From Cytophagaceae bacterium (lineage in GTDB: Bacteria > Bacteroidota > Bacteroidia > Cytophagales > Spirosomataceae), in NCBI GenBank assembly GCA_027491195.1, contig JAIXWQ010000008.1, positions 124,001 to 188,000 on the forward strand: DNA of 64,000 nt, written 5' to 3'. The position numbers were made by a program, and so were the translations under genes. The notes beneath the pieces were generated by a model. That model did not search any database and had not been told where the DNA came from. It saw only the letters and a program-made list of their open reading frames with translations. This document shows, one piece after another, positions 20,692 to 42,800 of this stretch (position 1 is its first letter; every line of letters begins with the position of its first letter).

Positions 20692-20695
20692 AACT

Positions 20696-23692: not shown

Positions 23693-23693
23693 G

Positions 23694-24587: not shown

Positions 24588-24622
24588 TTTCTTGTTAATT
24601 CAAAAAATAATTTAGACATTCG

Positions 24623-24640: not shown

Positions 24641-24934
24641 ATGGACGCAAAATTCAAAGCAATCAACGACCCTACCCGGAGAGAGATATTGCAATTTCTA
24701 GTCAATGGCCCGCAAAATGCAGGTAAAATTGCTGAGCAATTTGAGATGAGCAAGCCTAGCATTTCGCATCACTTGGATTTGCTCAAGCAAGCAAAATTGA
24801 TCCAAGCGGAGAAAAAAGGCCAATTTATAGAATATAAGTTGGATAAATCGGGATTCGAGGTAATCCATACCTGGTTTCAATCCTTTTCTAAATATTTTGA
24901 ATTCCCTAAGCCTAAAATTAGAATCGAAATTTAA
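24641..24934 (+). CDS. ArsR-family winged-helix repressor (SdpR-like autorepressor group)
   Basis: A 97-residue helix-turn-helix regulator. FKAINDPTRREILQFL at residues 4-19 and the recognition region MSKPSISHHLDLLKQAKLI are typical; a beta-wing follows (EKKGQFIEYKLDK). The metal-binding CxC motif of ArsR/SmtB sensors is missing, so it belongs with the non-metal group related to SdpR/YceK-type autorepressors. A perfect palindrome abuts the ATG. The gene for a 168-residue unknown protein starts 11 bases downstream and is the probable regulated partner. Confidence 0.9.
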   Translation: MDAKFKAINDPTRREILQFLVNGPQNAGKIAEQFEMSKPSISHHLDLLKQAKLIQAEKKGQFIEYKLDKSGFEVIHTWFQSFSKYFEFPKPKIRIEI

Positions 24935-24945
24935 TCTGTTTTATT

Positions 24946-25452
24946 ATGCAACTGCCCAGCTCATTTCAATTTATCCAATCACACCTACCTTTGAATACAA
25001 AAGGATTAGGAATTACAACATTAAGTAAACGTAATTTCTTTCAGTCGATTGGGGATTATTTCGCAGAAAAATCAGGTAAGAATCGGGTATCCTATGTGGC
25101 TGTAGGGGATGATTTTATCACCCTTTTGCACTTTCAGGGAACTGATCTTATTGATGAAAAAACAATTAAATTAGATCAATTAGACCACTTTTACGTTTCA
25201 GAAGGGCAAACGGCAGACGGAATTATACACCACCTATCTTGTGATGCCACGGTCATCATTTCTGAAAAGAAGATGTTTGATCACCACGTTAAGATATTGC
25301 CTTGTTTATTAGGCGAAAACGCTAGCAATGTACAAGCGATTCAAAGCATCCAATGGGCACAGGAATCCAAAAAAAATATCACAGATATCTTGAAAGGTTG
25401 GCCAGAACTAATCGCTAAGAAGAAAGCGAAATTGGCAGAGGAGAACGCTTAA
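24946..25452 (+). CDS. Hypothetical protein co-transcribed with the ArsR regulator
   Basis: A 168-residue soluble protein with no signal peptide or membrane segment and no family I recognise. Pattern: an alpha/beta N-terminal half with KRNFFQSIGDYFAEKSGKN and VSYVAVGDDFITLLHFQG, a middle HHLSCDATVIISEKKMFDHH with several His residues, and a Lys-rich C-terminal helix (KKKAKLAEEN). It follows the ArsR gene by 11 bases, so it is likely the gene whose expression that repressor controls. Its stop codon shares a TTAA tetranucleotide with the stop of the convergent MFS gene. Confidence 0.75.
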   Translation: MQLPSSFQFIQSHLPLNTKGLGITTLSKRNFFQSIGDYFAEKSGKNRVSYVAVGDDFITLLHFQGTDLIDEKTIKLDQLDHFYVSEGQTADGIIHHLSCDATVIISEKKMFDHHVKILPCLLGENASNVQAIQSIQWAQESKKNITDILKGWPELIAKKKAKLAEENA

Positions 25453-26711: not shown

Positions 26712-27435
26712 GTAGTAGATAAATAAGTGGACTCCAAAACGCCAGATCAGCCCAAATTCGCCGATCCTCAGACAGGGACATTCGGGACAAAAGGAACGTT
26801 ATCCCAAATGTAACCAAAAAAGGTAATACCAGGAAAAGATCCTGGCCACTCGCATACATTCCGCTCAGCAGGCCCATGATCACCCACTCTGACTTTCGTA
26901 AACGCGACGCATAAAATACACTTTGACCCTCTAAAAGCGCGAAATAACAGAGATTTTGATACGCCAATGCAGCTAAAGCAAGCACCCCTAAAAAAGCGCG
27001 AGGCTCTCTAACCCATACCACTAAAACCACCCCTACAGCATATAAAACGGCTGTACACAATTCTTTTTCTTGTTGAAGCCAGCCTTTGTGTGTGAAATAC
27101 CCATACAAAACGACAGCCATGGCAAGCATCACTCCTGCCATTAAAACCGCAGAGCTAATAAAGGGCAATAAACATAAAATAGCGACTAAAATCGCCCCCA
27201 TAAGAGCACGCAACACGCGCTGATGTTCTACATGGAATTGATGCCTTTGATCTCTTAAAGGCAAAAAAATGTTATCGACTTGCCGGTCGAGTAAATAAAT
27301 AAACCAAACCACTAAGGCTAAAATTACCCCCTCTTGAAGGGATGGAAAGACATGTAAATAGAATGCTGAAAGAAAAATTTGGTATAAACATGCCCCAATG
27401 ACGACTTCAAGAGAAGAAAACTTAATAAACCGCAT
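26692..27435 (-). CDS. Polytopic membrane protein, possibly UbiA-like
   Basis: A 247-residue protein with about seven or eight hydrophobic segments. An Asp/Arg-containing motif, YLLDRQVDN near residue 47 followed by RHQFHVEHQ, recalls the first Asp-rich motif of UbiA prenyltransferases, but the canonical NDxxDxxxD is not present and a second DxxxD motif is not clear. UbiA-like membership is therefore a guess. It overlaps the MOSC gene by 14 bases and the MFS gene by 20 bases, so translation of all three is probably coupled. Confidence 0.65.
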   Translation of the reverse strand: MRFIKFSSLEVVIGACLYQIFLSAFYLHVFPSLQEGVILALVVWFIYLLDRQVDNIFLPLRDQRHQFHVEHQRVLRALMGAILVAILCLLPFISSAVLMAGVMLAMAVVLYGYFTHKGWLQQEKELCTAVLYAVGVVLVVWVREPRAFLGVLALAALAYQNLCYFALLEGQSVFYASRLRKSEWVIMGLLSGMYASGQDLFLVLPFLVTFGITFLLSRMSLSEDRRIWADLAFWSPLIYLLHGIFST

Positions 27436-28234
27436 CTTGCGTCCGGATTACCTGAACCTCGTCACCCACCTGGATTTCTCCTAGCGAAATCGGAACAAAT
27501 TGTTGACCAAAATAGACCTTGTTATTCAAGGTTCGAAACGAAGCCAGCGTCTTTAATGTCTTTTTATCTGATTCTCCAGAATAGGGATCCACATTCACTA
27601 AGGGGCATCTAGCACAAGGCTTAGCACCAGATAGACAAAGCTCCCCTACCTGAATTTCGGCCCAAGAATCTTCGATAAATGGCGTATCAGAGGAGACAAT
27701 GATGTTAGGTCGGAAACGCAAACGATCTACTTCTTGCTCCATCCGATCTTCTAAGGCTTGATAAGAAGCTGAACCTACTACTAAAAGCGGCAAGGAATCA
27801 GCAAAGGAGGTATTTTTAGCTAAATCAGTTTGGTACTTCGCCTTCATCTCCCGGGGACTATCATCAGTAAGTTGAACTAAACTTACCGATTCAGCAAGCG
27901 CTTTGGAAAACCAATCAGCCCAACCGTCCAGCACTTCCCGCGCAGGTAAATGATCCTCCCAAATCTCCACCTGCAGGTGAGACCCTAACACAGGAAACCA
28001 AGGTAATTCCTTCGCTAATCCTGAAACGACATCCTTTACTAAAAAGCCTCCAACTGTTTCAGATAGCACAAAACGCGTTAATTCTGGTCTGGTTCGTTGG
28101 GTGATAAATTTGCCCTGCGCATCTACCAACATAAATCGACGATCACCCCGTAGGCCTTCTTTTTCCATCACTACTTTTTGCAAAGAGATGGCTCCTAATG
28201 ATTTAATGGGGTAAATGTAGAGATGCGAAATCAT
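27422..28234 (-). CDS. MOSC domain protein (YcbX-like)
   Basis: A 270-residue protein with an N-terminal MOSC beta-barrel domain (IYPIKSLGAISLQKVVMEKEGLRGDRRFMLVD) and a C-terminal MOSC domain with FRPNIIV and the conserved CLSGAKPCARCPLVNVDPYSGE, where the cysteine is expected to bind the molybdenum cofactor. Members such as YcbX and mARC reduce N-hydroxylated compounds. The N-terminal ferredoxin partner seen in YcbX is absent, so an external electron donor is needed. A -7 box lies 4 bases before the ATG, suggesting a leaderless message. moaC and moeA elsewhere in the window would supply its cofactor. Confidence 0.9.
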   Translation of the reverse strand: MISHLYIYPIKSLGAISLQKVVMEKEGLRGDRRFMLVDAQGKFITQRTRPELTRFVLSETVGGFLVKDVVSGLAKELPWFPVLGSHLQVEIWEDHLPAREVLDGWADWFSKALAESVSLVQLTDDSPREMKAKYQTDLAKNTSFADSLPLLVVGSASYQALEDRMEQEVDRLRFRPNIIVSSDTPFIEDSWAEIQVGELCLSGAKPCARCPLVNVDPYSGESDKKTLKTLASFRTLNNKVYFGQQFVPISLGEIQVGDEVQVIRTQDAVY

Positions 28235-28238
28235 GAGA

Positions 28239-28246
28239 CAAAAGTA
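28239..28246 (-). promoter_or_regulatory. -7 box (TACTTTTG) abutting the MOSC gene start
   Basis: TACTTTTG matches TAnnTTTG and ends 4 bases before the ATG at 28234. If used, the transcript would start at or within a base or two of the start codon. No clear -33 TTTG was found. Confidence 0.4.
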
Positions 28247-28315
28247 CTCTTTTCTGTGAAAAATGCCTTATGGGTACTTATAGGCTTTCGTCTTCCTAAT
28301 GTGCACAGATTTTCC

Positions 28316-28323
28316 TAAGTTTG
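28316..28323 (+). promoter_or_regulatory. -7 box (TAAGTTTG) for the TolC-family gene
   Basis: TAAGTTTG matches TAnnTTTG, 28 bases before the ATG at 28352. Confidence 0.5.
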
Positions 28324-28351
28324 TTACCTTGTAAATACGCAACCTATTTCT

Positions 28352-29659
28352 ATGAAACATATCCGCCTTTATTTTATCGCTTTATTGTGCCCTGTGATGG
28401 CGAAAGCACAACAAACATTGACCTTAGAAGAAGCGATCCAACAAGGTATCACGAAGCAATATTCGATTCAAATTTCGAGACAAAGAGAGCGAATTGCAGC
28501 AAATGAGAATAGTCTAGGCAATGCGGGTTTTTTACCCACAATCACCGGATCTGCGAATAAAAATTATACGATTTCGGGATTGAATCAATCGTTTTTTGGT
28601 GGCTTACGTCCCCCATTAGTACAGTCTGGTGTTAATTCAAACTCGGGGAATGCGGGTGTGGCGATGGCTTGGACGCTGTATGATGGAAAAGGGATGTTTA
28701 TCCTGCGTGATCGATTTAAGGAATTACAAAACTTAGGTGCGAAGCAAACTGAGAGTAACATTGAGAACCTAATCGCCTTAATTTCAAGCACTTATTATGA
28801 TATTATACGCCAAAGTCTTCGCGTAAACAACTTCAAAAAAGGGCTAGAAATTTCCAACGACCGCTTAAAATTAGCCAAAGATCGCTACGAGGTGGGACAA
28901 GGATCGAAGGTGGATTATTACTCCGCACAAGTAGATTACAATGAAGATAAAGCCTTATTAATCGCCCAAGAGCAAGCTTTCACCAATACAAAGATTGGTT
29001 TCAACACTTTACTCATAAAAGAGTACAAAGCTGACTTTAGCATCAACAATACCATTGACTTGTTACCTAAGTTGACGCTTAGCGAATTAAAAATGAGTGC
29101 CTTATCTCAAAATCCAGCGCTAATCGGGGCTATTTTATCGAAAAAAATTAGCGATTTAGAGACGAAAAATATTCAGAGTCAGCAGAAACCACAAATCGAT
29201 CTAGTAGCTGGTTACAACTTAAATAGTGTGGCGAATGGGGCAGGTTTTGGCGTGGAGAAAGGTAGTAGTGATGTTTTCAACTATGGCTTACGTGCAACTA
29301 TCAATATTTTTGATGGATATAATCAGAAACGTAGAATTCAAAACGCGAAAATCAATGCAGAGATTGCTTCTATGCAAATTGAGGATTTAAAGAATGCCTT
29401 GTTATCAGCCTTAGAAAGAACCTATGTGACCTACGAGAACTCTTTGAATTTGATTCAGTTAGAGACGGAAAACTATGCGATTGCGAAACAAAACATTGAC
29501 ATCGCTTTCGATCGCTTTAAAGTGGGTATTGCCACTTCCTATGAATTACGTGAGGTACAACGAAATGCGGTAGCAGCAGAGACGCGATTGATTGAGGCAA
29601 AATTTGCAGCTAAATCGGCTGAAATTGAATTAATTCGATTGAGTGGAAACTTGTTGTAA
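28352..29659 (+). CDS. TolC-family outer-membrane efflux protein
   Basis: A 435-residue outer-membrane channel protein with signal peptide MKHIRLYFIALLCPVMAKAQ. It has the two-fold repeat of long coiled-coil helices typical of TolC: LTLEEAIQQG at the start, LAKDRYEVGQGSKVDYYSAQVDYNEDKALLIAQ in repeat one and FDRFKVGIATSYELREVQRNAVAAETRLIEAKF in repeat two. Membrane-fusion and RND or ABC partners are not adjacent on the same strand; the convergent ABC exporter gene overlaps its 3' end by 30 bases and could be a functional partner, although it is on the other strand. Confidence 0.92.
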   Translation: MKHIRLYFIALLCPVMAKAQQTLTLEEAIQQGITKQYSIQISRQRERIAANENSLGNAGFLPTITGSANKNYTISGLNQSFFGGLRPPLVQSGVNSNSGNAGVAMAWTLYDGKGMFILRDRFKELQNLGAKQTESNIENLIALISSTYYDIIRQSLRVNNFKKGLEISNDRLKLAKDRYEVGQGSKVDYYSAQVDYNEDKALLIAQEQAFTNTKIGFNTLLIKEYKADFSINNTIDLLPKLTLSELKMSALSQNPALIGAILSKKISDLETKNIQSQQKPQIDLVAGYNLNSVANGAGFGVEKGSSDVFNYGLRATINIFDGYNQKRRIQNAKINAEIASMQIEDLKNALLSALERTYVTYENSLNLIQLETENYAIAKQNIDIAFDRFKVGIATSYELREVQRNAVAAETRLIEAKFAAKSAEIELIRLSGNLL

Positions 29660-31432
29660 CTCCTCGTTCAACTGTTGCTGGTAAAGCTCAAAATAAAGCG
29701 TTTGGTCTTTCATTAATTCGTCATGCGTTCCGCTTTCGACGATTCTACCTTCCGCTAAAACAAAGATTCGATTCGCTAATCGAGCGGAGGAAACACGGTG
29801 AGAAATAATCAGAGAAGATTTCCCTTTCGTCACTTGCTTTAAATTCTCCAGAATAGTGTGCTCTGTATGTGTGTCAACCGCAGAAAGACAATCATCTAAG
29901 ATGAGCATCTTCGGATTTTTTGCCAAAGCTCGGGCAATGGACACCCGTTGTTTTTGGCCACCAGAAAGCGTAATTCCGCGTTCTCCTAAGATAGTCTCGA
30001 AACCATCTGGAAACTCCATAATATTAGCATACACATCTGCCTGCTTCGCTGCCGTTTCAATGGCTTCTTGATCTAGCTGATCATTTCCAAAACGAATATT
30101 ATCCGAGATACTCGTCGAAAACAAGAAGACATCCTGCGGAACAAAACCTACAAAAGAGCGTACCCAGGCAATATCCCAATCTTTTAACGGAATCCCATCG
30201 AGTAAAATTTCTCCAGAACTAGGGTCATAAAAACGAGCCATTAGAAGGGCCACGGTAGATTTACCGGAACCGGTTTGGCCTAAAAGGGTCACGGATTCTC
30301 CAGCTTTAATGGTCAAATTAATCTTCTCTAAAACAGGTCGATCAGAACCTGGATAAACAAAGCTTACGTCCTTAAATTCCCAATTCCCCACAATATCTTG
30401 GCGTATCTGCTTCCCAGGCGTCAACTCTGATTTTGCTTCTAGAAACTCATTAATTCGCTTCTGAGAGGCGGCAGCTCTTTGTATCTGAGAACTAGTCCAA
30501 CCCAAAGCCGTCACCGGCCAGGTCAACATAAACACATACATAATGAACTCGGTGATATTACCCACCGTCATTCGACCGGCAATTACCTCTTGAGAACCAA
30601 TATAAACGACAAGAATGGTAGAAAATCCCACTAATAAGGCAATCAAGGGAGTAAACAACGAATCCACCTTCACCAAACCAAGCGATTTAGAGCGGTAGGC
30701 ATTAGAGGCTTCGGCAAATGAATTCACTGATTTTCGCTCTCTGACAAAGGACTTCAACACCCGAATACCTGAAAACGCTTCTTGTGCAAAGGTGGAAATT
30801 TGAGATAGAGCACCTTGAATTTCCTCAGACTTTCGGATGATGACCGAATTCACATAATAGATACTCAAAGACAAAATGGGCAAGGGCATCAAAACGTACC
30901 ACATTAATTTTTGATTCACCTGCCACATGGAATAAATCACCAGGATAAATACCGTGATCAAATTAAGGCCATACATGATGCTGGGACCTACATACATCCG
31001 CACTTTTCCCACGTCTTCGGAGATACGAGCCATTAAATCCCCCGTATTTTGTTGTCTATAGAAGGACAAAGGCAGTTTTTGGTACTGCGTATAAATCTCA
31101 TTTTTCAATTCGAATTCGATGTGACGGGACATCACTATCAATGTTTGACGAACTAAAAACAGGAAAACTCCTTTCAAAATGGCCATCAAAATGATTAAGC
31201 CACCGTAAAAAAACAGGGTAAAACCAAAAATTTCGTAAAAGGCCTTTTGTAGAGTAAACTGACTGAAAAGAAAATAAATGGCGATGGTTTCAGTCACTAA
31301 ATCGAGTGCATATCGCACTAATTGAGCAGGAAAAACACCGAAGAAATTCGATAGCAGTGTAAACAAAATCCCCAAAATGAGTAGCGACTTATATTTCCAG
31401 AAATACTGATTGATATGACTTAGCGCGCCCAT
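29630..31432 (-). CDS. ABC exporter, fused permease and ATPase (MsbA/YheI-like)
   Basis: A 600-residue half transporter with six N-terminal membrane segments and a C-terminal ATPase domain: Walker A LLGQTGSGKST, signature LSGGQKQR, Walker B MLILDDCLSAVD, and a switch His in IISHR. The residue after the Walker B Asp is Asp, not the usual catalytic Glu (codon at 29891-29893), as in some YheI/BmrC-type subunits that work in heterodimers. A TTG at 31471 would add 13 residues, but a -7 box at 31451-31458 lies inside that extension; the ATG at 31432 is preferred. The 3' end overlaps the convergent TolC gene by 30 bases. Confidence 0.9.
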   Translation of the reverse strand: MGALSHINQYFWKYKSLLILGILFTLLSNFFGVFPAQLVRYALDLVTETIAIYFLFSQFTLQKAFYEIFGFTLFFYGGLIILMAILKGVFLFLVRQTLIVMSRHIEFELKNEIYTQYQKLPLSFYRQQNTGDLMARISEDVGKVRMYVGPSIMYGLNLITVFILVIYSMWQVNQKLMWYVLMPLPILSLSIYYVNSVIIRKSEEIQGALSQISTFAQEAFSGIRVLKSFVRERKSVNSFAEASNAYRSKSLGLVKVDSLFTPLIALLVGFSTILVVYIGSQEVIAGRMTVGNITEFIMYVFMLTWPVTALGWTSSQIQRAAASQKRINEFLEAKSELTPGKQIRQDIVGNWEFKDVSFVYPGSDRPVLEKINLTIKAGESVTLLGQTGSGKSTVALLMARFYDPSSGEILLDGIPLKDWDIAWVRSFVGFVPQDVFLFSTSISDNIRFGNDQLDQEAIETAAKQADVYANIMEFPDGFETILGERGITLSGGQKQRVSIARALAKNPKMLILDDCLSAVDTHTEHTILENLKQVTKGKSSLIISHRVSSARLANRIFVLAEGRIVESGTHDELMKDQTLYFELYQQQLNEELQQVSTQSN

Positions 31433-31450
31433 AAATTGATTAATTGCCCA

Positions 31451-31458
31451 CAAAGATA
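31451..31458 (-). promoter_or_regulatory. -7 box (TATCTTTG) for the ABC exporter gene
   Basis: TATCTTTG on the minus strand, 18 bases before the ATG at 31432. It lies inside the possible longer reading frame and so argues for the shorter start. Confidence 0.5.
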
Positions 31459-31481
31459 GGACCTTTCTCAATTAAAATTCT

Positions 31482-31489
31482 TAATTTTG
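31482..31489 (+). promoter_or_regulatory. -7 box (TAATTTTG) for the nusB operon
   Basis: TAATTTTG matches TAnnTTTG. A transcript from here begins near 31496, after the upstream in-frame TTG at 31487 and before the ATG at 31520, which supports the latter as the nusB start. Confidence 0.5.
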
Positions 31490-31519
31490 GAATTCAAACA
31501 AGACGCTCTTTTTTTTCGG

Positions 31520-32683
31520 ATGGTTAACAGGAGATTACTACGGGTCAAAGCATTTCAGCAATTGTATGCTTTTTACACCCAAGAACGTGCCCAATATCAA
31601 TTAGCTTTTGATGGTTTAGCGACCATTTTTCAGCCTGATTTATCCCTTATGGTCTCAAAAGAGGACCAAATGCCTCGTTTAGAGGGCCTGAGACAACTTG
31701 CCGAGATTCAATTAAAAGAGTATTTCCAAGAAATCACTTCCGAAGAAAGCATTCCTGCAGAAGCGCAAGATGCGGCTCAATCTGTCTATAAATTGTACCA
31801 AGCGAACGTGAAACAAATCGCGAAACGCCTGAAGCAAGACATGGTGGTAGAGGTTGAGGCTATTAATAAGCAGTATTTAAAAATCCTTTATTACTTACAG
31901 CAATTGCCTATTATTGCCCTTTGGGATGAGAATAGACGACTTTTGGAGAATAACACGAAGACATCCTTACTTGCGAAGAACAAGGTCTTGTATATTTTGT
32001 CCAAATGGGGAGATCTACAACGTGCCTTCGAGAAAAATCACATCGGCTGGTCAGAAGATGAAGAAAATTTAATCAAGAAATTATTTATCGAGAACATCTT
32101 GACCGATGAAACCTTCTTAACTTACCTTCCTACAGCAGGTAAAAAGTTTGAAGATGATTTAGAATTCGTCAAATATGTGCTGAAAAATTTCCTTTTAAAA
32201 CACGAGTCGATGACGGAGTATTTTGAGGAAAAAGATTTAAATTGGTCTTTGAATAAAGATGTGGTGAAGAGTTTAGCGACTAAAACCTTTAAAATAGAGG
32301 CTTTAGAAGACTTAAGTTTACAACCACTCGCGATCCAATGGGAAGACGATAAATTATTCTTTGAAGAATTATTCGATTACAGCGTTACAGAAGACAAGCA
32401 ATTAAGTGCTTGGATCGGTGACCAAACGAAAAACTGGGAGTCCGATCGCTTAGCGGTTGCGGATTTTATTATCCTAAAAATGGCGCTAGCGGAGATGGTA
32501 AAATTCTCGAGCATCCCAGTGAAAGTAAGTATTAACGAGTACATCGAACTAGCTAAAAACTATTCGACACCGAAGTCTGGCCAGTTTATCAACGGTATAT
32601 TAGACGTGGTTTCGAACCGCCTAGTTCACGAAAAAGTGATTAATAAATCAGGTCGAGGATTAATCGACATAGCTAACAAATAA
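31520..32683 (+). CDS. nusB: Transcription antitermination factor NusB, long Bacteroidota form
   Basis: A 387-residue protein. The N terminus MVNRRLLRVKAFQQLYAF matches the first NusB helix, a long helical insertion follows, and the C-terminal NusB domain (about residues 255-380) holds WESDRLAVADFIILKMALAEMVKFSSIPVKVSINEYIELAKNYS with the conserved ELAK. Short NusB proteins are about 140 residues; the long form is usual in Cytophagales. NusB binds boxA of rRNA leader transcripts with NusE. The ATG at 31520 was chosen over the upstream TTG because the promoter box lies between. It leads an operon with ytxH, a DUF1573 gene, yajC and coaE. Confidence 0.9.
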   Translation: MVNRRLLRVKAFQQLYAFYTQERAQYQLAFDGLATIFQPDLSLMVSKEDQMPRLEGLRQLAEIQLKEYFQEITSEESIPAEAQDAAQSVYKLYQANVKQIAKRLKQDMVVEVEAINKQYLKILYYLQQLPIIALWDENRRLLENNTKTSLLAKNKVLYILSKWGDLQRAFEKNHIGWSEDEENLIKKLFIENILTDETFLTYLPTAGKKFEDDLEFVKYVLKNFLLKHESMTEYFEEKDLNWSLNKDVVKSLATKTFKIEALEDLSLQPLAIQWEDDKLFFEELFDYSVTEDKQLSAWIGDQTKNWESDRLAVADFIILKMALAEMVKFSSIPVKVSINEYIELAKNYSTPKSGQFINGILDVVSNRLVHEKVINKSGRGLIDIANK

Positions 32684-32684
32684 A

Positions 32685-32981
32685 ATGAGCAAATCATCTA
32701 GATCTTTTTGGGCCTTCGTAGTAGGTGCTGCTGCAGGAGCGGTTATCGGTATTTTATACGCTCCAGATAAAGGGGAAAATACACGTAACAAATTGTATTA
32801 TCAATTAAATAAATACCGTGATCAATTAAAGCAATTGATTAATGATATCGTGGATGGTAAAGAGGTGATCGAAACTACCGCAAAATCAGAAGGTAAAAAA
32901 GTGGTGCAAGACGCGAAAATCAAGGCAGAAAAATTGCTTGAGGACGTGGAAAAAATGATGACCCAAATCAAGGCTAAATAA
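32685..32981 (+). CDS. YtxH domain protein
   Basis: A 98-residue protein with one N-terminal membrane segment rich in Gly and Ala (FWAFVVGAAAGAVIGILYAP), followed by the conserved PDKGENTR and a long charged helix. This is the YtxH arrangement of a single-span envelope-associated protein of unknown function. It starts 1 base after the nusB stop and ends 1 base before the DUF1573 gene. Confidence 0.9.
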   Translation: MSKSSRSFWAFVVGAAAGAVIGILYAPDKGENTRNKLYYQLNKYRDQLKQLINDIVDGKEVIETTAKSEGKKVVQDAKIKAEKLLEDVEKMMTQIKAK

Positions 32982-32982
32982 A

Positions 32983-33423
32983 ATGTCCAAGGCTCTCCTT
33001 TTATTCTGTTTAGTTGGGATGCTCTCCTGCACAAATCAGCAAAAAGAGGCGAATAATGCGACGGAAAATGCCATTCCAGCCGCATTAAAACCAAGTGCAG
33101 AAAAACAGCCCATTTTGAAAGTAGATAAACCCTATGTTTCACTAGGCAGAATCACCGAAGGAGATAGTGTTTTTCACACCTTCAATTTTAAGAATACCGG
33201 CAATTTGCCTTTGAAAATTATCTCCGTAAATGCCTCCTGCGGGTGCACAACGCCTAAATGGACGACAGAGATTATTCAACCTGGGAAAAAAGGTTTCATT
33301 CGCGTGAAATTTGATTCAAAAGGAAAAGAAGGGAAATTGCAAAAGTCCATTACCGCCTACTGTAATACGCTTCCAGCGGAGAACAGAATGGCATTTAAAG
33401 TAGAAGTCTTACCTAAAAAATAA
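32983..33423 (+). CDS. DUF1573 lipoprotein
   Basis: A 146-residue lipoprotein: the signal sequence ends in MLSC, so Cys16 or so would be acylated. The mature domain is DUF1573, an immunoglobulin-like fold with the diagnostic motif VNASCGCTTPKW (about residues 81-92) and IQPGKKGFIRVKFDSKGKEG. Its function is not established. Its place between ytxH and yajC is conserved in many Bacteroidota. Confidence 0.9.
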   Translation: MSKALLLFCLVGMLSCTNQQKEANNATENAIPAALKPSAEKQPILKVDKPYVSLGRITEGDSVFHTFNFKNTGNLPLKIISVNASCGCTTPKWTTEIIQPGKKGFIRVKFDSKGKEGKLQKSITAYCNTLPAENRMAFKVEVLPKK

Positions 33424-33427
33424 AAAC

Positions 33428-33727
33428 ATGTTATTATTACAAGCTCAGAGTCCTGCCTACATGCAAATCATCCTTTTTGGAGGAATTTTCGTGGTATTTT
33501 ATTTCTTCATGATTCGACCACAGCAACAAAAAGCGAAAGAAGCGAAAAAATTCATTGAAGAATTAAAGACAGGGGATAAAGTTGTTACTATCGGAGGTGC
33601 ACATGGCACAGTGGTAACGATTCGCGAAAAAACCATCGTTGTAGAAGTAGATTCTAGCAAAGGTGTTCGCATGGTATTTGAAAAAACAGCGATCTCGAAA
33701 GATGCATCGTCTCGTTTAGAAGAGTAA
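33428..33727 (+). CDS. yajC: Preprotein translocase accessory subunit YajC
   Basis: A 99-residue YajC: one N-terminal membrane segment (ILFGGIFVVFYFFMIRPQQQKAKE) with the hallmark FMIRPQQQ, and a cytoplasmic domain with LKTGDKVVTIGGAHGTV. It associates with SecDF of the Sec translocon. It starts 4 bases after the DUF1573 gene and 5 bases before coaE. Confidence 0.95.
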   Translation: MLLLQAQSPAYMQIILFGGIFVVFYFFMIRPQQQKAKEAKKFIEELKTGDKVVTIGGAHGTVVTIREKTIVVEVDSSKGVRMVFEKTAISKDASSRLEE

Positions 33728-33732
33728 TCGAT

Positions 33733-35148
33733 ATGACTACAGGCCTGAAACCATTCATCGGAATTACAGGCGGAATCGGATCCGGCAAATCAACTATTTG
33801 CCGGATTTTTTCGTGTTTAGGCATCCCTGTTTTCGAGGCTGACAAAGCAGCTCGTGAAATTTGTGATCAAGATACGGCCGTAAAAGAAGCGATTATTGCG
33901 GAGTTTGGGCCTAAAGCCTACCTCCCGGATGGAAGCTATAATCGTGCTTGGATAAAGGGTTTACTCCAAAAATACCCAGGCGATGTGGCCCACCTAAATG
34001 CCATCATTCATCCAGCGGTTCGACAAAAAGCAACGGAATGGTTCGCGGCTACTCCTGATGCCCCCTTCTGCTTATACGAATCGGCCCTCATCACACCGCA
34101 AAAGAAACCGGAGCCAATTTCACAAATCATCACGGTGGATGCTCCTTTGAGTGAACGAATTCAAAACATTCAAAAAAGAAGTAACATGAGTTATATGGAA
34201 ACGATGCAAATAATTGACCTGCAACCGAAGCCCAAAAACTATTTATGGGGCGCTGATTTCGTCATTCAAAACGGGAAAAATGATCAAGTTTTTCCACAGG
34301 TGATGCAGATTTTAAAAGCCTTTACTTGCTTCCTATTGCTATTAGTGGGCCCATCTGCATCCGCACAACTTAAAGCGATGACCTTTAATGTCCGCCTTGA
34401 TACGGAATCTGATGGCCTAAATCAATGGAAATACCGGAGCAAACACTGCGGCGAACTTATCCGTTACCACCAGGCGGACATCATCGGTTTACAAGAGGCA
34501 TTTTTACATCAAATAACGGATTTAGAAAAAGAATTACCTGGTTTTGGCTGGTTCGGCAAAGGTCGAGATGATGGCAAAGCGGAAGGAGAATTCTCTGCTT
34601 TAATGTACCGCAAATCAAAGTTTAAATTAATCAAAGAAAGTACATTTTGGCTTTCCGATTCCTGCGACAAAGTAGGCTTTGGCTGGGATGCGGCTTGTCG
34701 CCGTGTGGTGACCTGGGGCCAATTTCAAGAAATAAAAACGGGGAAGAAATTCTTCGTATTTAATACCCATTTCGATCATTTAGGCAAAGTGGCGCGTAGA
34801 GAAAGTGCAAAGCTCGTTTTGCGAAAAATCGCAGAAATTGCTGGCAAAGCTCCAGTCATTTTAACGGGGGATTTCAATGCCACACCTGACGACGAACCGA
34901 TTCAAATCCTAGTAGACCCCAAAAATCCAGCCCGAGTGATTGATACAGAAAAGATTAGCCAAAATGGCCACTATGGCCCCTACAGCTCATTTAATGGATT
35001 CACTAAGGAACAGGAAGGCAAACACATTGACTATGTATTTGTTAAAAACGGGCCTGTCGTATTGCAACATACGACACATAGCGAGACTTGGGAAAACAAA
35101 TATCCGACAGATCATTTCCCGGTGAGCGCGGTGATTAGAATCCCGTAA
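33733..35148 (+). CDS. coaE: Dephospho-CoA kinase fused in frame to an exported-type endonuclease/exonuclease/phosphatase domain
   Basis: A 471-residue frame holding two proteins. Residues 1-190 are a full dephospho-CoA kinase (P-loop GITGGIGSGKST at 10-21, FEADKAARE, NAIIHPAVRQ), the last step of coenzyme A synthesis. Residues 191-212 (MQILKAFTCFLLLLVGPSAS and AQ) look exactly like a signal peptide, and residues 213-471 are an endonuclease/exonuclease/phosphatase domain (MTFNVRLDT, GLQEAFL, LTGDFNATPDDEP, HIDYVF, PTDHFPVSAV). No stop separates them. An internal ATG at 34303 would give a normal 281-residue exported enzyme. Either a true fusion with a buried membrane segment, or two products from nested starts. 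Confidence 0.85.
   Translation: MTTGLKPFIGITGGIGSGKSTICRIFSCLGIPVFEADKAAREICDQDTAVKEAIIAEFGPKAYLPDGSYNRAWIKGLLQKYPGDVAHLNAIIHPAVRQKATEWFAATPDAPFCLYESALITPQKKPEPISQIITVDAPLSERIQNIQKRSNMSYMETMQIIDLQPKPKNYLWGADFVIQNGKNDQVFPQVMQILKAFTCFLLLLVGPSASAQLKAMTFNVRLDTESDGLNQWKYRSKHCGELIRYHQADIIGLQEAFLHQITDLEKELPGFGWFGKGRDDGKAEGEFSALMYRKSKFKLIKESTFWLSDSCDKVGFGWDAACRRVVTWGQFQEIKTGKKFFVFNTHFDHLGKVARRESAKLVLRKIAEIAGKAPVILTGDFNATPDDEPIQILVDPKNPARVIDTEKISQNGHYGPYSSFNGFTKEQEGKHIDYVFVKNGPVVLQHTTHSETWENKYPTDHFPVSAVIRIP
34303..35148 (+). CDS. Possible separate product: exported endonuclease/exonuclease/phosphatase family protein (nested start)
   Basis: Starting from the in-frame ATG at 34303, the product would be a 281-residue protein with an N-terminal signal peptide (cleavage after about SASAQ) and a metal-dependent phosphodiesterase domain of the DNase I/sphingomyelinase fold. 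Residues expected for catalysis are visible: Glu in GLQEA, Asn/His in FNTHFDH, Asp/Asn in TGDFNATP and the terminal Asp-His in TDHFP. Substrates of the family range from nucleic acids to phospholipids. CACAGG lies 2 to 7 bases before the ATG. This is an alternative reading of the 3' part of the coaE fusion. Confidence 0.45.
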   Translation: MQILKAFTCFLLLLVGPSASAQLKAMTFNVRLDTESDGLNQWKYRSKHCGELIRYHQADIIGLQEAFLHQITDLEKELPGFGWFGKGRDDGKAEGEFSALMYRKSKFKLIKESTFWLSDSCDKVGFGWDAACRRVVTWGQFQEIKTGKKFFVFNTHFDHLGKVARRESAKLVLRKIAEIAGKAPVILTGDFNATPDDEPIQILVDPKNPARVIDTEKISQNGHYGPYSSFNGFTKEQEGKHIDYVFVKNGPVVLQHTTHSETWENKYPTDHFPVSAVIRIP

Positions 35149-35152
35149 GGCA

Positions 35153-35184
35153 TTTGGGAATTAAGGCTTAAAAAGGTAAATTTG
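35153..35184 (+). promoter_or_regulatory. Promoter of dnaX (TTTG-N20-TAAATTTG)
   Basis: TTTG at 35153-35156 and TAAATTTG at 35177-35184, separated by 20 bases, match both Bacteroidota promoter elements. The -7 box ends 3 bases before the dnaX ATG at 35188, so the message should be leaderless or nearly so. Confidence 0.6.
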
Positions 35185-35187
35185 ATT

Positions 35188-36978
35188 ATGGAAAATTTCA
35201 TCGTTTCAGCGCGTAAATACCGCCCTACCCTATTTGATTCTGTGGTAGGCCAAAGTCATATTACCACCACCCTCAAGAATGCGATTAAATCGAATCATCT
35301 AGCACAAGCATTTTTGTTTTGTGGTCCTAGAGGTGTGGGAAAAACGACTTGTGCGCGTATTCTTGCGAAGACGATTAATTGCCAAGATCTAGGAGCGGAT
35401 GGTGAAGCCTGCGGAAAATGTTCGTCTTGTCATTCATTTCAAGAAAATACCTCATTAACGATTCACGAGCTTGATGCCGCTTCGAATAACTCTGTTGAAG
35501 ATATTCGCAACCTGATTGATCAAGTTCGCTATCCTCCTCAAAACGGAAAATACAAGATCTACATCATCGATGAGGTTCACATGTTATCGGCTGCTGCCTT
35601 TAACGCCTTTTTAAAAACCTTAGAAGAACCCCCTTCTTATGCTATTTTTATTTTAGCGACGACGGAAAAGCATAAGATTTTGCCTACGATTTTATCTCGT
35701 TGCCAAATCTTTGATTTCAACCGCATCCAGTGGAAAGACATGGCTTCTCACCTGGCGTCTATCGCCAGCAAAGAGGGTATTAATGCAGAGCCTGCTGCCT
35801 TGGAATTGATTTCGATTAAGGCAGATGGGGGACTTCGTGACGCGTTGTCCATGTTTGACTTAAATGTCACCTTCTCGACAGACAATTCGCTAAAACATGC
35901 GGATGTATTGGAGAACCTTCACATTTTAGATAGTGACTATTATTTTAAGTTAACAGATTTCTTTGTTAACCAGCAACATACGGACGCTCTTGTTTTATTA
36001 GACGAGATTATGCGCAAAGGTTTCGATGGACAGCAATTCATCGCGGGACTTTCTGAGCATTTCCGGAATTTATTATTTGCCAAAGATCCGAAGACGCTTG
36101 CCCTTATGGAGTTAAGCGAGGAAAATCGGACAAAATTCCAGGCTCAATGCGCTAAGACGTCTGCTTCCTTCCTACTTTCAGCTATGAATCTTTGTTCTCA
36201 ATGCGAGATTCATTACAAAGCGGCGAAAAATGCCCGTCTTCACGTAGAGCTTACCTTACTTAAGATCAATTATTTGCCGTCGGTCTACCAGCCTGCAGCA
36301 CAACCTGCGGTGGAGGGTGGCGCCGGAAAAAAGTCTGAGAGTAAACCGATAGCTCCGGCTGCGGTTTCCGTGGCCCCTACAACCTCTGCTCCGGTGGTCG
36401 AAGCAACATCACCTACCATTGCACCAGTAGAGGCAGTGGTTGCTCCTACTCCCGCAGCCCCTATTGCACCAGCACCCATTTCGGCGACTCCAGAAATTCC
36501 AGCTCCTAGACCGAGCAGCCATGGATTGCGTAGTGCGAAGAAAGTAGTGACTGCGAATCAATCTGAAAGTGCGGATGAAGCCAGTGTTCAAGGAAAGGCG
36601 CAGCATGAGCCTTTTACTTTTGAGGAGCTGAATTTTGTTTGGACCCAAATCGCCCAAGGATTTAAGCATGGCAATTTCATCAACAAGTATGTGATGATGA
36701 ATCGAGAGATTAGTCTAGTCGATTCAGTGATTCACATGAAGGTGGAGGGCGAAGTACAGATTCAACAATTTAATGACTCCTTGAAGCTGGAATTATTAAC
36801 TCAATTAAGAGAGAAATTGAAAAATGACTCGATTGATTTGAGCTTAGATCTCATTGAAGGTGACGTGTCCGATAAAAAGCTGATTTATACACAATCGGAT
36901 AAATACGAATTCTTATCCCAAAAGCACCCGATTTTAGTGGAAATGAAGCAGAGAATGGGATTGGATCACGAATTTTAA
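35188..36978 (+). CDS. dnaX: DNA polymerase III subunits gamma and tau
   Basis: A 596-residue clamp-loader ATPase. The N-terminal AAA+ domain has FDSVVGQSHITTTLKNAI, Walker A GPRGVGKTT, the zinc module with CGKCSSC, Walker B IYIIDEVHMLS, and LEEPPSYAIFILATTEKHKILPTILSRC. Residues about 370-450 form an Ala/Pro/Val-rich linker, followed by a C-terminal tau-like domain. An upstream TTG at 35182 falls in the -7 box, so the ATG at 35188 (MENFIVSARKYRP) was chosen. Its stop shares TTAA with the stop of convergent proA. A programmed frameshift producing gamma cannot be judged by eye. Confidence 0.96.
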   Translation: MENFIVSARKYRPTLFDSVVGQSHITTTLKNAIKSNHLAQAFLFCGPRGVGKTTCARILAKTINCQDLGADGEACGKCSSCHSFQENTSLTIHELDAASNNSVEDIRNLIDQVRYPPQNGKYKIYIIDEVHMLSAAAFNAFLKTLEEPPSYAIFILATTEKHKILPTILSRCQIFDFNRIQWKDMASHLASIASKEGINAEPAALELISIKADGGLRDALSMFDLNVTFSTDNSLKHADVLENLHILDSDYYFKLTDFFVNQQHTDALVLLDEIMRKGFDGQQFIAGLSEHFRNLLFAKDPKTLALMELSEENRTKFQAQCAKTSASFLLSAMNLCSQCEIHYKAAKNARLHVELTLLKINYLPSVYQPAAQPAVEGGAGKKSESKPIAPAAVSVAPTTSAPVVEATSPTIAPVEAVVAPTPAAPIAPAPISATPEIPAPRPSSHGLRSAKKVVTANQSESADEASVQGKAQHEPFTFEELNFVWTQIAQGFKHGNFINKYVMMNREISLVDSVIHMKVEGEVQIQQFNDSLKLELLTQLREKLKNDSIDLSLDLIEGDVSDKKLIYTQSDKYEFLSQKHPILVEMKQRMGLDHEF

Positions 36979-38222
36979 CGGATTTGGCCCTGGCCTTTAC
37001 CAATCCATTTTTCTGTCACTAATTTCTCCAATGCAAAGGGCCCGCGGGCGTGCAATTTTTGAGTAGAAATTCCGATTTCAGCTCCAAGACCAAATTGTCC
37101 ACCATCCGTAAATCGGGTAGACGCGTTCCAATACACAGCAGCTGCATCTACAGCCGATAGGAAATAGTTAGCTTCCGATTCATCCGATGTGATAATTGCT
37201 TCGGAATGTCGCGAAGAATAAGTAGCAATATGGGCGAGCGCTTCAGAGAAATCATCTACTACCTTGATGGAGCAAGCAAAATCTAAGAATTCGCGACCAA
37301 AATCAGCCTCTGCTGCCTTCTCCAGTAAAGGGTAACCTACCGACTCCAAAATCGCATAGGACGATTCATCCGCATATACTTTAACCGCGTGTGCTGTAAA
37401 CGGCTCCCTCACTTGAGCTAAGAATTCCGACGCAATGGAACGGTGTAATACAATGGTATCCAATGAATTACAGACAGAAGGACGAGAGACTTTGGCATTC
37501 ACCACTACCTCCACCGCCATCTTCAAACCTGCAGATTCGGCCACATAGGTATGACAAACCCCTGCCCCCGTTTCTATGGTAGGAACTAAAGATTCTTTTC
37601 TCACGCGCTGAATCAAGGCTTCAGAGCCACGAGGAATAAGTACATCAATGTATTTAACCGCCGTTAATAAAGTAGAGACTAATTCACGGTCAGTCGGCAT
37701 CAAGTAGACCACATCCGTTGAAATCCCTTGCTGCGTTAAGGCTTGATGAACGATATCCACTAAAATGGTATTCGTATGAAAGGCATCTGAACCACCTCGT
37801 AAAACCGCCGCATTTCCGGAACGGATACATAGCGCAGCCACGTCAATGGTCACATTAGGTCTAGATTCAAAAATAACGCCAACCACTCCTAGGGGCACCG
37901 TTATTTTTGTTAATTCCAATCCATTAGGAAGCGTTTTTTGTGATAAAATATGGCCTGCAGGATCTGGCAATTGAGTCACCGAAATCACACTTTCCACTAA
38001 ATCGACTAATCTTTCTGGCGTTAACTTCAGTCGATCAAGCATGGGATGATCTACCGACATTTGATCTAAGTCCTTTTGATTTTCCTGCAAGATTTCTACC
38101 GACTTTTCCTGAATTAATAGGGCCATATGACGAAGAATCGCATTCCTAGTCTCCCCACTAGCCATCGCTAAAGAGGCCGCAGCTGAACGGGTACGTTGAA
38201 ATTGAGCAATAATCGTAGACAT
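36975..38222 (-). CDS. proA: Glutamate-5-semialdehyde dehydrogenase
   Basis: A 415-residue gamma-glutamyl phosphate reductase of proline synthesis, reducing glutamyl-5-phosphate with NADPH. Seen are GVIFESRPNVTIDVAALCIRSGNAAVLRGG, the nucleophilic Cys in VSRPSVCNSLDTIVLH, and TDGGQFGLGAEIGISTQKLHARGPFAL near the C terminus. proB is not next to it in this window. It starts 1 base after the CotH gene stop, so it is the last member of the long minus-strand run. The stop overlaps dnaX by 4 bases. Confidence 0.96.
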   Translation of the reverse strand: MSTIIAQFQRTRSAAASLAMASGETRNAILRHMALLIQEKSVEILQENQKDLDQMSVDHPMLDRLKLTPERLVDLVESVISVTQLPDPAGHILSQKTLPNGLELTKITVPLGVVGVIFESRPNVTIDVAALCIRSGNAAVLRGGSDAFHTNTILVDIVHQALTQQGISTDVVYLMPTDRELVSTLLTAVKYIDVLIPRGSEALIQRVRKESLVPTIETGAGVCHTYVAESAGLKMAVEVVVNAKVSRPSVCNSLDTIVLHRSIASEFLAQVREPFTAHAVKVYADESSYAILESVGYPLLEKAAEADFGREFLDFACSIKVVDDFSEALAHIATYSSRHSEAIITSDESEANYFLSAVDAAAVYWNASTRFTDGGQFGLGAEIGISTQKLHARGPFALEKLVTEKWIGKGQGQIR

Positions 38223-38223
38223 A

Positions 38224-39879
38224 TTAATTCGAAATGGTTAACCTTAATTTTTGACTTGATTCTTCTGTTGCATTCCATTGAAACAGATAAGATCCGGCAG
38301 GTAGGCTGGAGAAATCTAATGTATAAATCTGCTCCCCTGACCCAAAATTAAGGCTTTTTGAGCTAATTAACACACGTCCTTGCAGATCAAGTACCTGGTA
38401 ATTGACTTCGGCTGATTTGGAAAGAGTAAATCGCCAAGTAAAAAGTCCTTTGGACGGATTAGGATACACCAGAGAAGGCAATTCAACCTGTTCATTGCCC
38501 AGTATGGGACTATCAAAAAGAGCCATTTGGGCATCTAACCAAGTTAATCGTCCTTGTATCCAATTTTTCAACCAATTCACCTCATCCGTCAAGCTTGATC
38601 CAACATAATAATTAGGCCAGATTTTACGACCCATCAATTGGTATTTTTGGAAATTTCGCGTTAAAGGCTCTTTTAGAACCACCTGAGCTGAATCGATCGT
38701 CGAATTTAAGGTATTTGTATTTAGAAAAGAGGATCTTACTTCTTTCCAACGCGTCGCCAACGCTTTCCTAAAATTAGCATCTTGAATTAATTTATTCCAC
38801 CAAAAAGGCACTTGCCAATAATCATTTTTACCCCCATCATTCTCCATCGCCTTGTACACAAAGCCATTCGTCATCCAACCATTTAAGTAATCTGCATTCC
38901 CAAAAGCAATATTAAAATCCCAAGCCGGTCCCATTTTAATTTTACCCCCTAAAGACTCTTTGTCTTTATATAAATAGGTACTTAAGCGAAAGCCATCCAC
39001 GTTACGCGTAACTTCATTCAAGATGAAAAAATTCACGAAGGAGGGCATGTCCATTATATCTCTAAAACTCGCTTTCGGATCATTCATGTCCTCTGTCATG
39101 AGTTTACGTTCCCAGGTATTGATGTAATCCCGTATGTAAATCAATTGCTGCTGAGTGATAATCCCGTATTTAGGGTATTCAATCTGAAACTCACATTTCT
39201 GAGTAGCGGTAATACCAGAGGTATAATTACTCTTCCATGAAGTGGAAGGCGAACCACTCGACTTATCTATTTTCAATAAATACCCACCTGTTACATCATC
39301 TCCCGAATTTTCTGTCGGGTATAGATCAGAGATAGGCACGCGATTTTTTCCCTGCTTAATTTTCTCCATGAGGACGTATACACCTCGGTATTCGTCATTA
39401 ATGATTAATTCAACAAATTTAGTTTTGCTATTTAATACGCCCAGACGCCCTGCGATCATTTGCGCTAAAAAATCACGCATAAAGGAGCGGTCATTATAGG
39501 AGGCATTTAACACCCAATCCGTCTCCTCCGGCATCTGAACAAGGGACATTTTTTTAGCATTCACCCCTGATGTATCCGTCCAAATTTCAATCCCATACGG
39601 CTTTTTAACATAACCAGGTAGGAAAATAAAATCAGCTTGAGAAGTCGAACCCCTAAACTCAATTCCGGCAATCGTAGTAAGGGTAGGCGTCGAAGAAACT
39701 TGATTTAATTGCCCAACCCCTTTATCAAAAATTTCCATCACCACTGGAATCTTAGGTTCATCCTGAATAACCCTAGAATTTGTGTTGATGCGAAGAATGG
39801 GCAGGTTAGAGACGCTGAGACTTTGGCCTACTAAAAGAGCAGGCAACAGCAGCCAAAAAAAGAATAGGCATTTTTTCAT
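38224..39879 (-). CDS. CotH kinase-family protein with T9SS type A sorting domain
   Basis: A 551-residue secreted protein with a signal peptide (MKKCLFFFWLLLPALLVGQ). The central CotH domain contains GVYVLMEKIKQGKNR, GGYLLKIDKSSG and NEVTRNVDGFRLSTYLYKDKE followed by KMGPAWDFNIAFGN, matching the spore-coat kinase-like fold. The last 80 or so residues start LVYPNPSKGLFTWRF and end in a Lys-Leu-Arg-containing tail, the type A C-terminal domain recognised by the type IX secretion system, so the protein should reach the cell surface. It lies directly after the 1005-residue barrel protein gene (no gap) and 1 base before proA. Confidence 0.9.
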   Translation of the reverse strand: MKKCLFFFWLLLPALLVGQSLSVSNLPILRINTNSRVIQDEPKIPVVMEIFDKGVGQLNQVSSTPTLTTIAGIEFRGSTSQADFIFLPGYVKKPYGIEIWTDTSGVNAKKMSLVQMPEETDWVLNASYNDRSFMRDFLAQMIAGRLGVLNSKTKFVELIINDEYRGVYVLMEKIKQGKNRVPISDLYPTENSGDDVTGGYLLKIDKSSGSPSTSWKSNYTSGITATQKCEFQIEYPKYGIITQQQLIYIRDYINTWERKLMTEDMNDPKASFRDIMDMPSFVNFFILNEVTRNVDGFRLSTYLYKDKESLGGKIKMGPAWDFNIAFGNADYLNGWMTNGFVYKAMENDGGKNDYWQVPFWWNKLIQDANFRKALATRWKEVRSSFLNTNTLNSTIDSAQVVLKEPLTRNFQKYQLMGRKIWPNYYVGSSLTDEVNWLKNWIQGRLTWLDAQMALFDSPILGNEQVELPSLVYPNPSKGLFTWRFTLSKSAEVNYQVLDLQGRVLISSKSLNFGSGEQIYTLDFSSLPAGSYLFQWNATEESSQKLRLTISN

Positions 39880-42800
39880 TTAAAAGTCGTATCCCAGAGT
39901 TAAATAGGTCACTGGAGATTTCACTTCCTTATTTTCTAGACCAAACGCATAATCAAACTTCACAAAGTACCCAAACACATTCGCACGTGCCCCCATTCCG
40001 TAGCCCATTAAAAAAGGATTACGAAAATCTGTGACGGTCGCTTGGAAGGGGTTCGTATTCCCGCCATACACATTGGTATTGAATCCATTTGATTTTTCAA
40101 AAGGACTGGAGCCCGTCCAGGCAGTTCCTACATCCGTGAATCCGACCAATTGTAGGGAATTCAAAAAAGAAGAAGACTCAACAGACATTAAGGACTTAAC
40201 AGGCATTCTCAATTCGACGTTTAACAATAAATGACTGTTGCCACTCAATTTATTATAGGAGAATCCACGCAATGGGGCGATAAATTCACTCATGAAAATA
40301 TCCCGATTCGCTAATCCCTGAGTCCCCAAAGGAGTTTCCTGCGTTCTAGTTTCTGCTTTATTAAACAACCAATTATCCACCCCGCCTAACATAGAAGCTG
40401 GAGCGGAAGAGCCCACTTGGTGCGAGGCAGAAAACCGCGTCGCCACATAAAATGAATTGGATATTTTTTTATAGTAGCGGGTGTCCAAAACCAAGCGAAT
40501 AAATTCCCCCGACTTCTCAACTGCCGTATTTGCCTCAGCACTGACACTGAATCGTAAACCAGTCCTTAGATTCTCTCCTGCCGGTATCGTATGATCGTAG
40601 ACATAATTTACTTGCGCACCGGCGTAACCGATATAATCCTCAGGACTGGACAAAGTGTATTGACTAAACAACCGATTTGTTCGGTACATTCCCGTCATAG
40701 TCAATCTACTGAGTAAGCTGAAGGGATAACTGGCACTCAGCGCAAATCGATTATAACGTATTTTTTGAATTTCTGATTCCGTGTCTTGACCCAGCACTTT
40801 CCGATCATAGCGGAATGTCCAATCTAGCTTATTAGCTAGGTAATTGTATTCCCCCCAAAGATCTGTATTACGCAGATTCGCCGCTAAAAATATTCCTGCC
40901 TTGAATAGGTGGTTTTCGAGTAAATCATTTGCCTTCAACTCATAAGCATAGCCTAATCCTCGAATGGGATCTGATTTGAATAGCCCCTCTGAACTATTCA
41001 TCACAAAAGAACTTTCATAATCATAGGGCCCTATCAACTTCCCTGGCTCTCTTTTCAATCGAATGCTTTGCTGTCTCTCGAGTCGAGCACGTCTTTGTTT
41101 TTTAGCCGCATCTGTAGTTTCAATAGCAGGCGTTTCCAGACTCGCTTGCACCACCGGATCTAGGATGGTAGGTATCCAGGCTGAATTCGTTAGTTCGTCA
41201 ATACTCGACCAAGAATAACGCGCGATTTTGTCTGTCAATATGGTATTCTCCTTACTAGAGATTCCCGTAGGGGAAATTTCAAATTGATCCCAAGCCACAG
41301 AGCGCAAAGCCATTTGCTGGAAGGAGGTATCCGCTAGATTAAATCGGATGAGTCGGTTACCTTGACTTTGGGAATGTAAAAAATAGGCAATCGAATCCGA
41401 GCGAAACTGAAAATTAGACACTTTACCCGAGGTTGAAAAAAGGCGTATCGGATTCTCAGGCTCTTCTGGATTATAGATAAATGCAGAGGAGAATGGGGCT
41501 GCAGGCGCAGGCAAGGAATCAATGTACCGATCGCTTACATACAAAATGCGGTTATCAGGCAATAAACGAGCCTCCGTTTCATCAAAAGCATCCTTCGTGA
41601 TCAGATTTAGGCGATTGCGCTTTACATCATACATCCCTACATCCACTTGGCCTTTTTCCAAAACACGTACCAACATCTTCGTTCCATTCGGATTCATCTC
41701 CATCGATAAATAGGACAGATTCGCGATCTTCTTTTTTTGATCACCCGTGCTGCGGCCATTTTTGTCAACTTGGAACGTTTTTAACCACGTGAATCCTTGA
41801 TCTGAAAACAAAACATGCAACTGATTTTTACCGCTCCAAGACAATAATGGGCCTTTACCTGCAGACAAGCGATTGACCTCTTTCAAGCCTGACTGCAAAA
41901 TTACCTGTGACTTTTTCGAAGCAAGCGTATGTAAATGAACACTGAAACGTCCGGATTCATCACTTACCCACACCTCGTGCAATCCATCTGGGCTCATCCG
42001 ATGCGATTGAATTCCGGCAGGCGTACCCGCGAAATCATCCGTAGAGAATACTTTTTGAGAATTTACTTCCAGCTGCTTCGCATCGTTTAAATAATAGTCA
42101 AACCATTCCTTTAAAAACTTCGAGAAGGGCTTCCTAATCGTACTAGCTACACTTGACTGCTCACTCCGTATAATCCGAGTCAAATTCAAAATATTACCAA
42201 TGGCTTGTCTCCCATACGTGCTTGCGATATAGGACCAAATCGATTGCCCTAGTAGCTCCGCTTCCTTACCTTTCGCTAATGGCAGTTTTCGAATCTTATT
42301 TTCACTGATGATTTGGTAGGTAAAACGGCGCATTTCTGGTGAATCCCCTGTAGCAATATAGGCGGCCATCCCTAAAACGTACCAATCAGATAAGTTTAAC
42401 AATAACGAATTTTGTAATACATCCTTTACACTTCCGCCATAGAGCAGGTCGTGCAAGTAGACACGCACCACTTGTTTCGTTAATTCTTGCTTAAATGAAT
42501 ATAAATTATCCTTAAAGGGGATTTCGAGACGGAATTTAGAGAGGTTTTCACTGTCCACCTCTTTCGCATCACTCAGCGATATTCCACTGTTACTTTGTAA
42601 CCACGATTCGTGGTTAGGGTAGATAAAAATTTTGACTTTTTGTACTGGAGAATAAGAAATCAGTTCCGTAATTCGAACAAAATCCGCTTCTAAATAGGTT
42701 AGCGTTGACTTAGCTAATGGCTCGTCCTTATCCAGGTAATAGACCTCGTAATTCGAACTTGCCACATATTTCCAGGCAAATTTCTGGTATTGAATGCGGT

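Follow-up and report, generated by a model that had tools for sequence, protein, structure and literature searches.

How can an essential enzyme of the cytosol and an enzyme that looks destined for export be encoded in one uninterrupted reading frame? The window (the whole stretch of 64,000 nucleotides that was analysed) comes from a Cytophagaceae genome of 2.49 Mb that is 98% complete, and it holds such a frame on the forward strand, at 33733..35148, where 471 codons run without a stop. The frame joins a dephospho-CoA kinase (CoaE), a signal-like linker and an endonuclease/exonuclease/phosphatase (EEP) domain in a chain of 471 amino acids. Coenzyme A synthesis depends on CoaE, which is essential. 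A signal peptide is usually expected at the N-terminus, whereas the signal-like segment here lies about 190 residues from the coaE start. Gene-fusion logic, in turn, assumes that fused enzymes share a compartment or a pathway.

Two enzymes in one frame

Profile searches bear out the original prediction of a CoaE, a signal-like segment and an EEP domain in a single frame. The Pfam CoaE model (PF01121) covers residues 8-181 (33754..34275, forward strand) at 119.2 bits against a cut-off of 27, and the NCBIfam equivalog TIGR00152 scores 88.7 bits, above its cut-off of 65.55, with protein residues 9-186 spanning positions 2-179 of the 188 in the model. The P-loop GSGKS, at residues 16-20, is invariant in all 27 aligned fusion proteins. 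By this full-length curated match and the P-loop, the first half is predicted to be a dephospho-CoA kinase, the same complete domain as in stand-alone CoaE (TIGR00152, PF01121; PDB 1jjv, 9bkz, 1t3h). Stand-alone CoaE ends at about 200 amino acids, whereas the chain described here continues into the signal-like segment and a second enzyme. That second domain matches Pfam Exo_endo_phos (PF03372) over residues 216-461 (34378..35115, forward strand) at 72.4 bits against a cut-off of 24.5, and N219, E255, H346, D348, H349, D380, N382, D460 and H461, which we take to be the catalytic residues of the domain, are also invariant in 27/27. The Pfam match and these conserved catalytic-type residues point to an EEP phosphatase. 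The neighbours are intact, as had been stated, with yajC upstream (33428..33727, forward; PF02699) and dnaX downstream (35182..36978, forward; NF011531, 786 bits against a cut-off of 685). A whole-protein search of the window's genome at E 1e-3 or better returned this single match, with no second coaE and no second copy of the phosphatase. With no stop at the end of coaE and no other copy detected, ribosomes that begin at the coaE start must make the fused chain.

An AlphaFold2 model built from a 27-row alignment has modest confidence (mean pLDDT 73.8, pTM 0.50). It predicts two folded domains, a helix at residues 186-204 in which the hydrophobic segment continues the C-terminal helix of CoaE, and a low-confidence break at 204-210. 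The best PDB matches by Foldseek are Bacteroides EEP proteins, followed by CoaE structures. These Bacteroides proteins, 3g6s, 3mpr and 4c1r (Bt3783 mannosyl-6-phosphatase), are the nearest solved relatives (E 1.5e-56 to 8.8e-46). They were solved as separate proteins. The domain in the fusion resembles Bt3783 in sequence and fold; its substrate may be sugar-phosphate-like.

CoaE with an additional C-terminal domain has a precedent in the mycobacterial CoaE-UPF0157 (GrpB) fusion, and we considered whether the window protein belongs there. It scores 88.2 bits against NF002879, presumably the model of that fusion, far below the cut-off of 215, and its second domain is PF03372, unrelated to UPF0157, so this assignment was rejected. 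In mycobacteria, the UPF0157 domain is reported to help CoaE to fold (PMC2765170).

All three parts of the chain are under purifying selection. Within six clades, dN/dS is 0.05-0.17 for CoaE, 0.02-0.06 for the EEP domain and 0.07-0.32 for the linker, the last a rough figure drawn from about 26 codons. When neutral evolution was simulated to one change per site, 5% of the linkers were still free of stops and hydrophobic at the same time.

Spread and history of the fusion

The fusion is found at full length and without an internal stop in 26 of 36 other Aquirufa genomes, at 59-91% identity; the copy at locus L004, which is among these, lacks its first codons at a contig edge. The remaining ten comprise one genome in which a contig edge splits the fusion and one piece crosses the junction in frame, five with CoaE alone, one with only a contig-edge piece, and three with no match. 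A further Aquirufa species beyond the 36 carries the fusion, as does a 2.7-Mb genome of a neighbouring genus (G225), in which the gene order, ytxH-DUF1573-yajC-coaE-dnaX, is the same. Sandaracinomonas is named as the genus closely related to Aquirufa in PMC10821818, and our guess is that G225 belongs to it. With the window's own, this makes a set of 29 fused genes from 29 genomes in two genera.

Wider scans returned the same group. A scan of named genomes gave 582 relatives, and of the best 80 of these, 10 loci were fused and the other 70 had the phosphatase without CoaE on the locus; the top loci came from Aquirufa antheringensis, A. nivalisilvae, A. ecclesiirivi, A. beregesia and MAGs labelled Cytophagaceae. 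The fusion is present in named isolates of all four species. The full-length matches in 390 genomes of the order were eight of the genus and G225. The family scan covered 200 genomes at E 1e-90 or better. Scans of the class and the phylum (395 genomes each, E 1e-95 or better, thresholds that a very different, independent fusion could escape) gave no further fusion, and the single other match in the phylum was to the phosphatase part alone. Among the order, family, class and phylum genomes scanned, the fusion was thus found only in Aquirufa and one neighbouring genus. An adjacent but separate arrangement of coaE and phosphatase was absent from the 70 unfused loci (flanks of at most 4 kb, shorter near contig ends), and none was seen by eye in two further sets of unfused loci (n=8 and n=6). 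The nearest unfused phosphatases, from two genomes, begin with a signal-like segment of their own and are not beside coaE within the 6.5-7 kb read. Our literature search returned no report of a CoaE-EEP phosphatase fusion among the matches listed.

How old is the fusion? In a phylogeny built from four neighbouring proteins (36 rows, with G225 as the root), fused genes fall to either side of the root, and those with CoaE alone are nested within two well-supported clades. Some CoaE-only genes also carry what reads as a linker remnant. In L033-L035, which form one clade, CoaE ends in KSITGLT or KSIAGLA, 53 bases before dnaX, and by its sequence this ending is a cut-off copy of the fusion linker, the scar of a lost phosphatase. 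The position of the fused genes, the nesting of the CoaE-only genes and the remnant together indicate that the fusion is old and ancestral to Aquirufa, and that the phosphatase was probably lost in two lineages while CoaE was kept. Parsimony on the tree counts three changes; we read two losses because L033-L035 share the 53-base spacer and the same kind of ending. In the other two CoaE-only loci, L031 and L032, 23 bases separate the end of coaE at its stop from the ATG of dnaX downstream. A separate phosphatase was not found in the five CoaE-only genomes, which are 79-94% complete, so that a copy could be missed. These five genomes, with their two apparent losses, show that the coupling of kinase and phosphatase is dispensable.

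The recent loss of a stop codon, one of the explanations first offered for the locus, is refuted by this history, in which the fusion is ancestral to the genus and extends to its neighbour. Nor do all close relatives have separate coaE and nuclease genes, the pattern that had been named as evidence against a real fusion; 26 of the 36 Aquirufa genomes are fused. We give a sequencing or assembly error, or a recently lost coaE stop, next to no chance. Nothing speaks in favour of either, and the in-frame fusion recurs in 29 genes from 29 genomes of two genera, named isolates included.

The junction and the fate of the chain

The linker has the features of a signal peptide for signal peptidase I: a positive residue, a hydrophobic core, and small residues before a predicted cut. 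In the window, the core lies at 34318..34347 (forward strand; residues 196-205), preceded by a Lys and largely within the modelled helix 186-204. The predicted signal peptidase I region follows at 34348..34368 (forward; residues 206-212), with the cut placed between residues 211 and 212, next to the model break at 204-210. All 29 fused genes have the same layout, from the CoaE C-terminal helix through a Lys/Arg-containing stretch and a hydrophobic core to a small residue plus Gln and then the phosphatase. An A, G or S directly precedes the Gln in 29/29, and K or R, judged by eye, precedes the core in 29/29. Over the 10 residues ahead of the best 15-residue window, however, the net charge amounts to only -1 to +2. 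For the position three residues before the Gln we used a loose rule (A, S, T, V, L, I, G, C or M allowed); L018 has Met there, which is unusual at that distance from a signal peptidase cut. The best 10-residue hydropathy of the linkers has a mean of 2.90 and a minimum of 2.22, against a mean of 2.74 and a minimum of 0.04 for the N-termini of 69 unfused relatives, whose starts were chosen crudely. On average, the linker core is as hydrophobic as those N-termini. Elsewhere in the chain, the best value is at most 2.52 in the CoaE part and 1.85 in the EEP part. In four fused genes (L002, L003, L006 and L007), a 7-residue insert follows the predicted cleavage site, at the equivalent of about 34366 in the window, and adds, a short way ahead of the phosphatase, a second Gln that follows an Ala or Gly.

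These features, with the homology to enzymes that start with a signal-like segment, support the earlier suggestion that the second domain is exported. We propose that translation begins at coaE and that the kinase at the N-terminus folds and acts in the cytosol. The signal peptide that once began the phosphatase, and that now occupies residues ~190-211, would then emerge and be inserted by Sec with its N side in, so that the phosphatase is exported. Signal peptidase I would probably cut before Gln212. This would free the phosphatase, and CoaE would retain a short membrane tail at its C-terminus, which an S2P protease might then shorten. The window's genome encodes both a signal peptidase I and an M50 (S2P) protease, and a signal inserted N side in gives the topology of type II membrane proteins. 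Escherichia coli RseP removes remnant signal peptides after cutting by leader peptidase and generally cuts type II proteins (PMC8144685). From the topology, the RseP precedent and the two encoded proteases, we infer export and cutting at about even odds, and we give a probability of roughly 0.5 to one chain ending in two compartments, with cytosolic CoaE, a Sec-exported phosphatase and a signal peptidase cut between them. The stricter proposal, a two-compartment polyprotein in which CoaE and an unrelated exported phosphatase are obligatorily made as one chain and parted by signal peptidase at the buried signal, is one that we hold only tentatively.

The cytochrome b/c1 precursor FbcH of Bradyrhizobium is a bacterial polyprotein cut at an internal signal sequence, and it is likewise one chain with an internal signal that gives two proteins. 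However, the FbcH parts belong to one membrane complex, whereas here an essential cytosolic enzyme would be parted from an unrelated, probably exported one by a cut that we deduce from the junction. No other bacterial internal-signal polyprotein was found in the literature searched.

Could the phosphatase instead be made from a start of its own? The original prediction had raised nested starts at 33733 and 34303. On such a reading, the fusion would be a by-product that supplies CoaE, and the internal start would give a normal secreted precursor. The ATG at residue 191 (34303..34305, forward strand) does stand directly before a plausible signal peptide, and all seven genes of the window's clade have a start-type codon there (ATG in six, TTG in L004). 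At that place it occurs in 0/22 others, although five further genes have other nearby starts, so that 12/29 in all have an ATG, GTG or TTG within five codons upstream of the core. The nearest lies 14 codons away in 2/29 and 21 in 3/29, and in L014 it coincides with the opening codon of the core. In 11/29, the neighbouring genus included, the 25 codons upstream of the core contain none. Several fused genes have start-type codons inside the core, and several of the 11 have them only there, where a start would leave a shortened core without its charged beginning. The coaE start is the sole one common to the fused genes and, given the 11 genes, both domains must as a rule come from the fused chain. 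Nor did the junction show the additional constraint on its nucleotides that a concealed start or a site of frameshifting would leave; synonymous divergence there is near average (pS 0.54-0.56 against a mean of 0.59). With coaE lacking its own stop, the fused chain would be made in any case. Internal initiation thus fails as a general mechanism and is unlikely as the explanation of the locus, though an extra start may remain in the window's clade.

The main rival keeps the chain whole, as the original prediction of a membrane-tethered fusion did. The fusion is real, in two genera; the tether, with CoaE on the inner face and the phosphatase on the outer face of a type II single-pass protein, seems to us somewhat improbable. 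In some clades, the hydrophobic stretch of the linker is longer (for example, L014, L015, L018, L022 and L027), and the model predicts an unbroken helix at 186-204 in the window protein. Against this, the core in the window is short, at ~10-11 residues, and every fused gene has a small residue before the Gln, as in a cleavable signal. The same modelled helix, running on from the C-terminal helix of CoaE, would also suit a bifunctional enzyme that stays in the cytosol with the segment as a buried linker, and CoaE is fused to another domain in mycobacteria as well (PMC2765170). However, the small-residue site before Gln is kept here too, and the unfused relatives begin with signal-like segments; because the closest of them are the same enzyme with such an N-terminal segment, we counted them for export of the fused phosphatase. 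We know of no functional link between such an EEP phosphatase and CoaE, and consider a wholly cytosolic enzyme quite unlikely.

On the preferred reading of one chain for two compartments, a freshwater genus appears, throughout its history, to have used a cytosolic housekeeping enzyme as leader for an enzyme that is normally exported. The locus would then provide a naturally occurring and testable example of Sec export in which a folded cytosolic domain precedes the exported part. It would also caution against methods that take the fusion of two domains as a sign of a functional link.

A hairpin in the P-loop codons

A terminator-like hairpin with a T-run lies inside coaE at 33778..33810 (forward strand), in codons 16-26, which encode the P-loop. 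Its DNA reads GGATCCGGCAAATC-N4-ATTTGYCGGATTTTT, with 13 counted pairs and a T-run, the most pairs of 32 terminator-like sites in 20000-39900 on both strands, and its folding z-score is -4.21. In 15-codon sliding windows, synonymous divergence is almost frozen over coaE codons 1-30 (pS 0.09-0.23 against the mean of 0.59). Across 36 loci in 36 genomes, the hairpin bases are identical except for the four middle bases, one A/G change at one locus, and one C/T site (12/24), which pairs with G either way in RNA and would break a DNA palindrome. Among hairpin codons with an invariant amino acid, 8/10 use a single codon in all 29 fused genes, against 2/141 beyond codon 30 (Fisher 3.6e-10, with columns treated as independent). 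Of 130 family genomes, 13 carry the hairpin, each in a single copy, namely 12 of the genus and G225; it was absent from the other 117 at up to 3 mismatches. It is also kept in the CoaE-only species, so that it concerns coaE or dnaX rather than the fusion.

How unusual is such a structure? No Rfam match was found at E 1 or better for 33300-35300. We compared the coaE P-loop regions of other families, 13 being readable of 20 fetched (7 had no P-loop match); four of these also fold at -18 to -23 kcal/mol and four, one of them shared, also have five Ts at the Phe codon. The case for the hairpin therefore rests on the frozen codons and on the stem abutting the T-run, not on energy or the T-run alone. 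The amino acids V/I-C-R-I-F occur in two of these families too, so the hairpin did not create them. With its G-C-paired stem, T-run and conservation, the hairpin has the features of an intrinsic terminator, and we read it as a candidate terminator or attenuator inside coding sequence, relieved by translating ribosomes. It possibly also gates the amount of fused chain and of downstream dnaX. This is a case separate from the fusion, in which one stretch of DNA specifies a catalytic loop and, it appears, also a signal that stops transcription. The half-word TCCGGCAAAT of the hairpin has one further copy in the window, at 16276-16285 on the forward strand, giving 3 matches in total against 0.21 expected.
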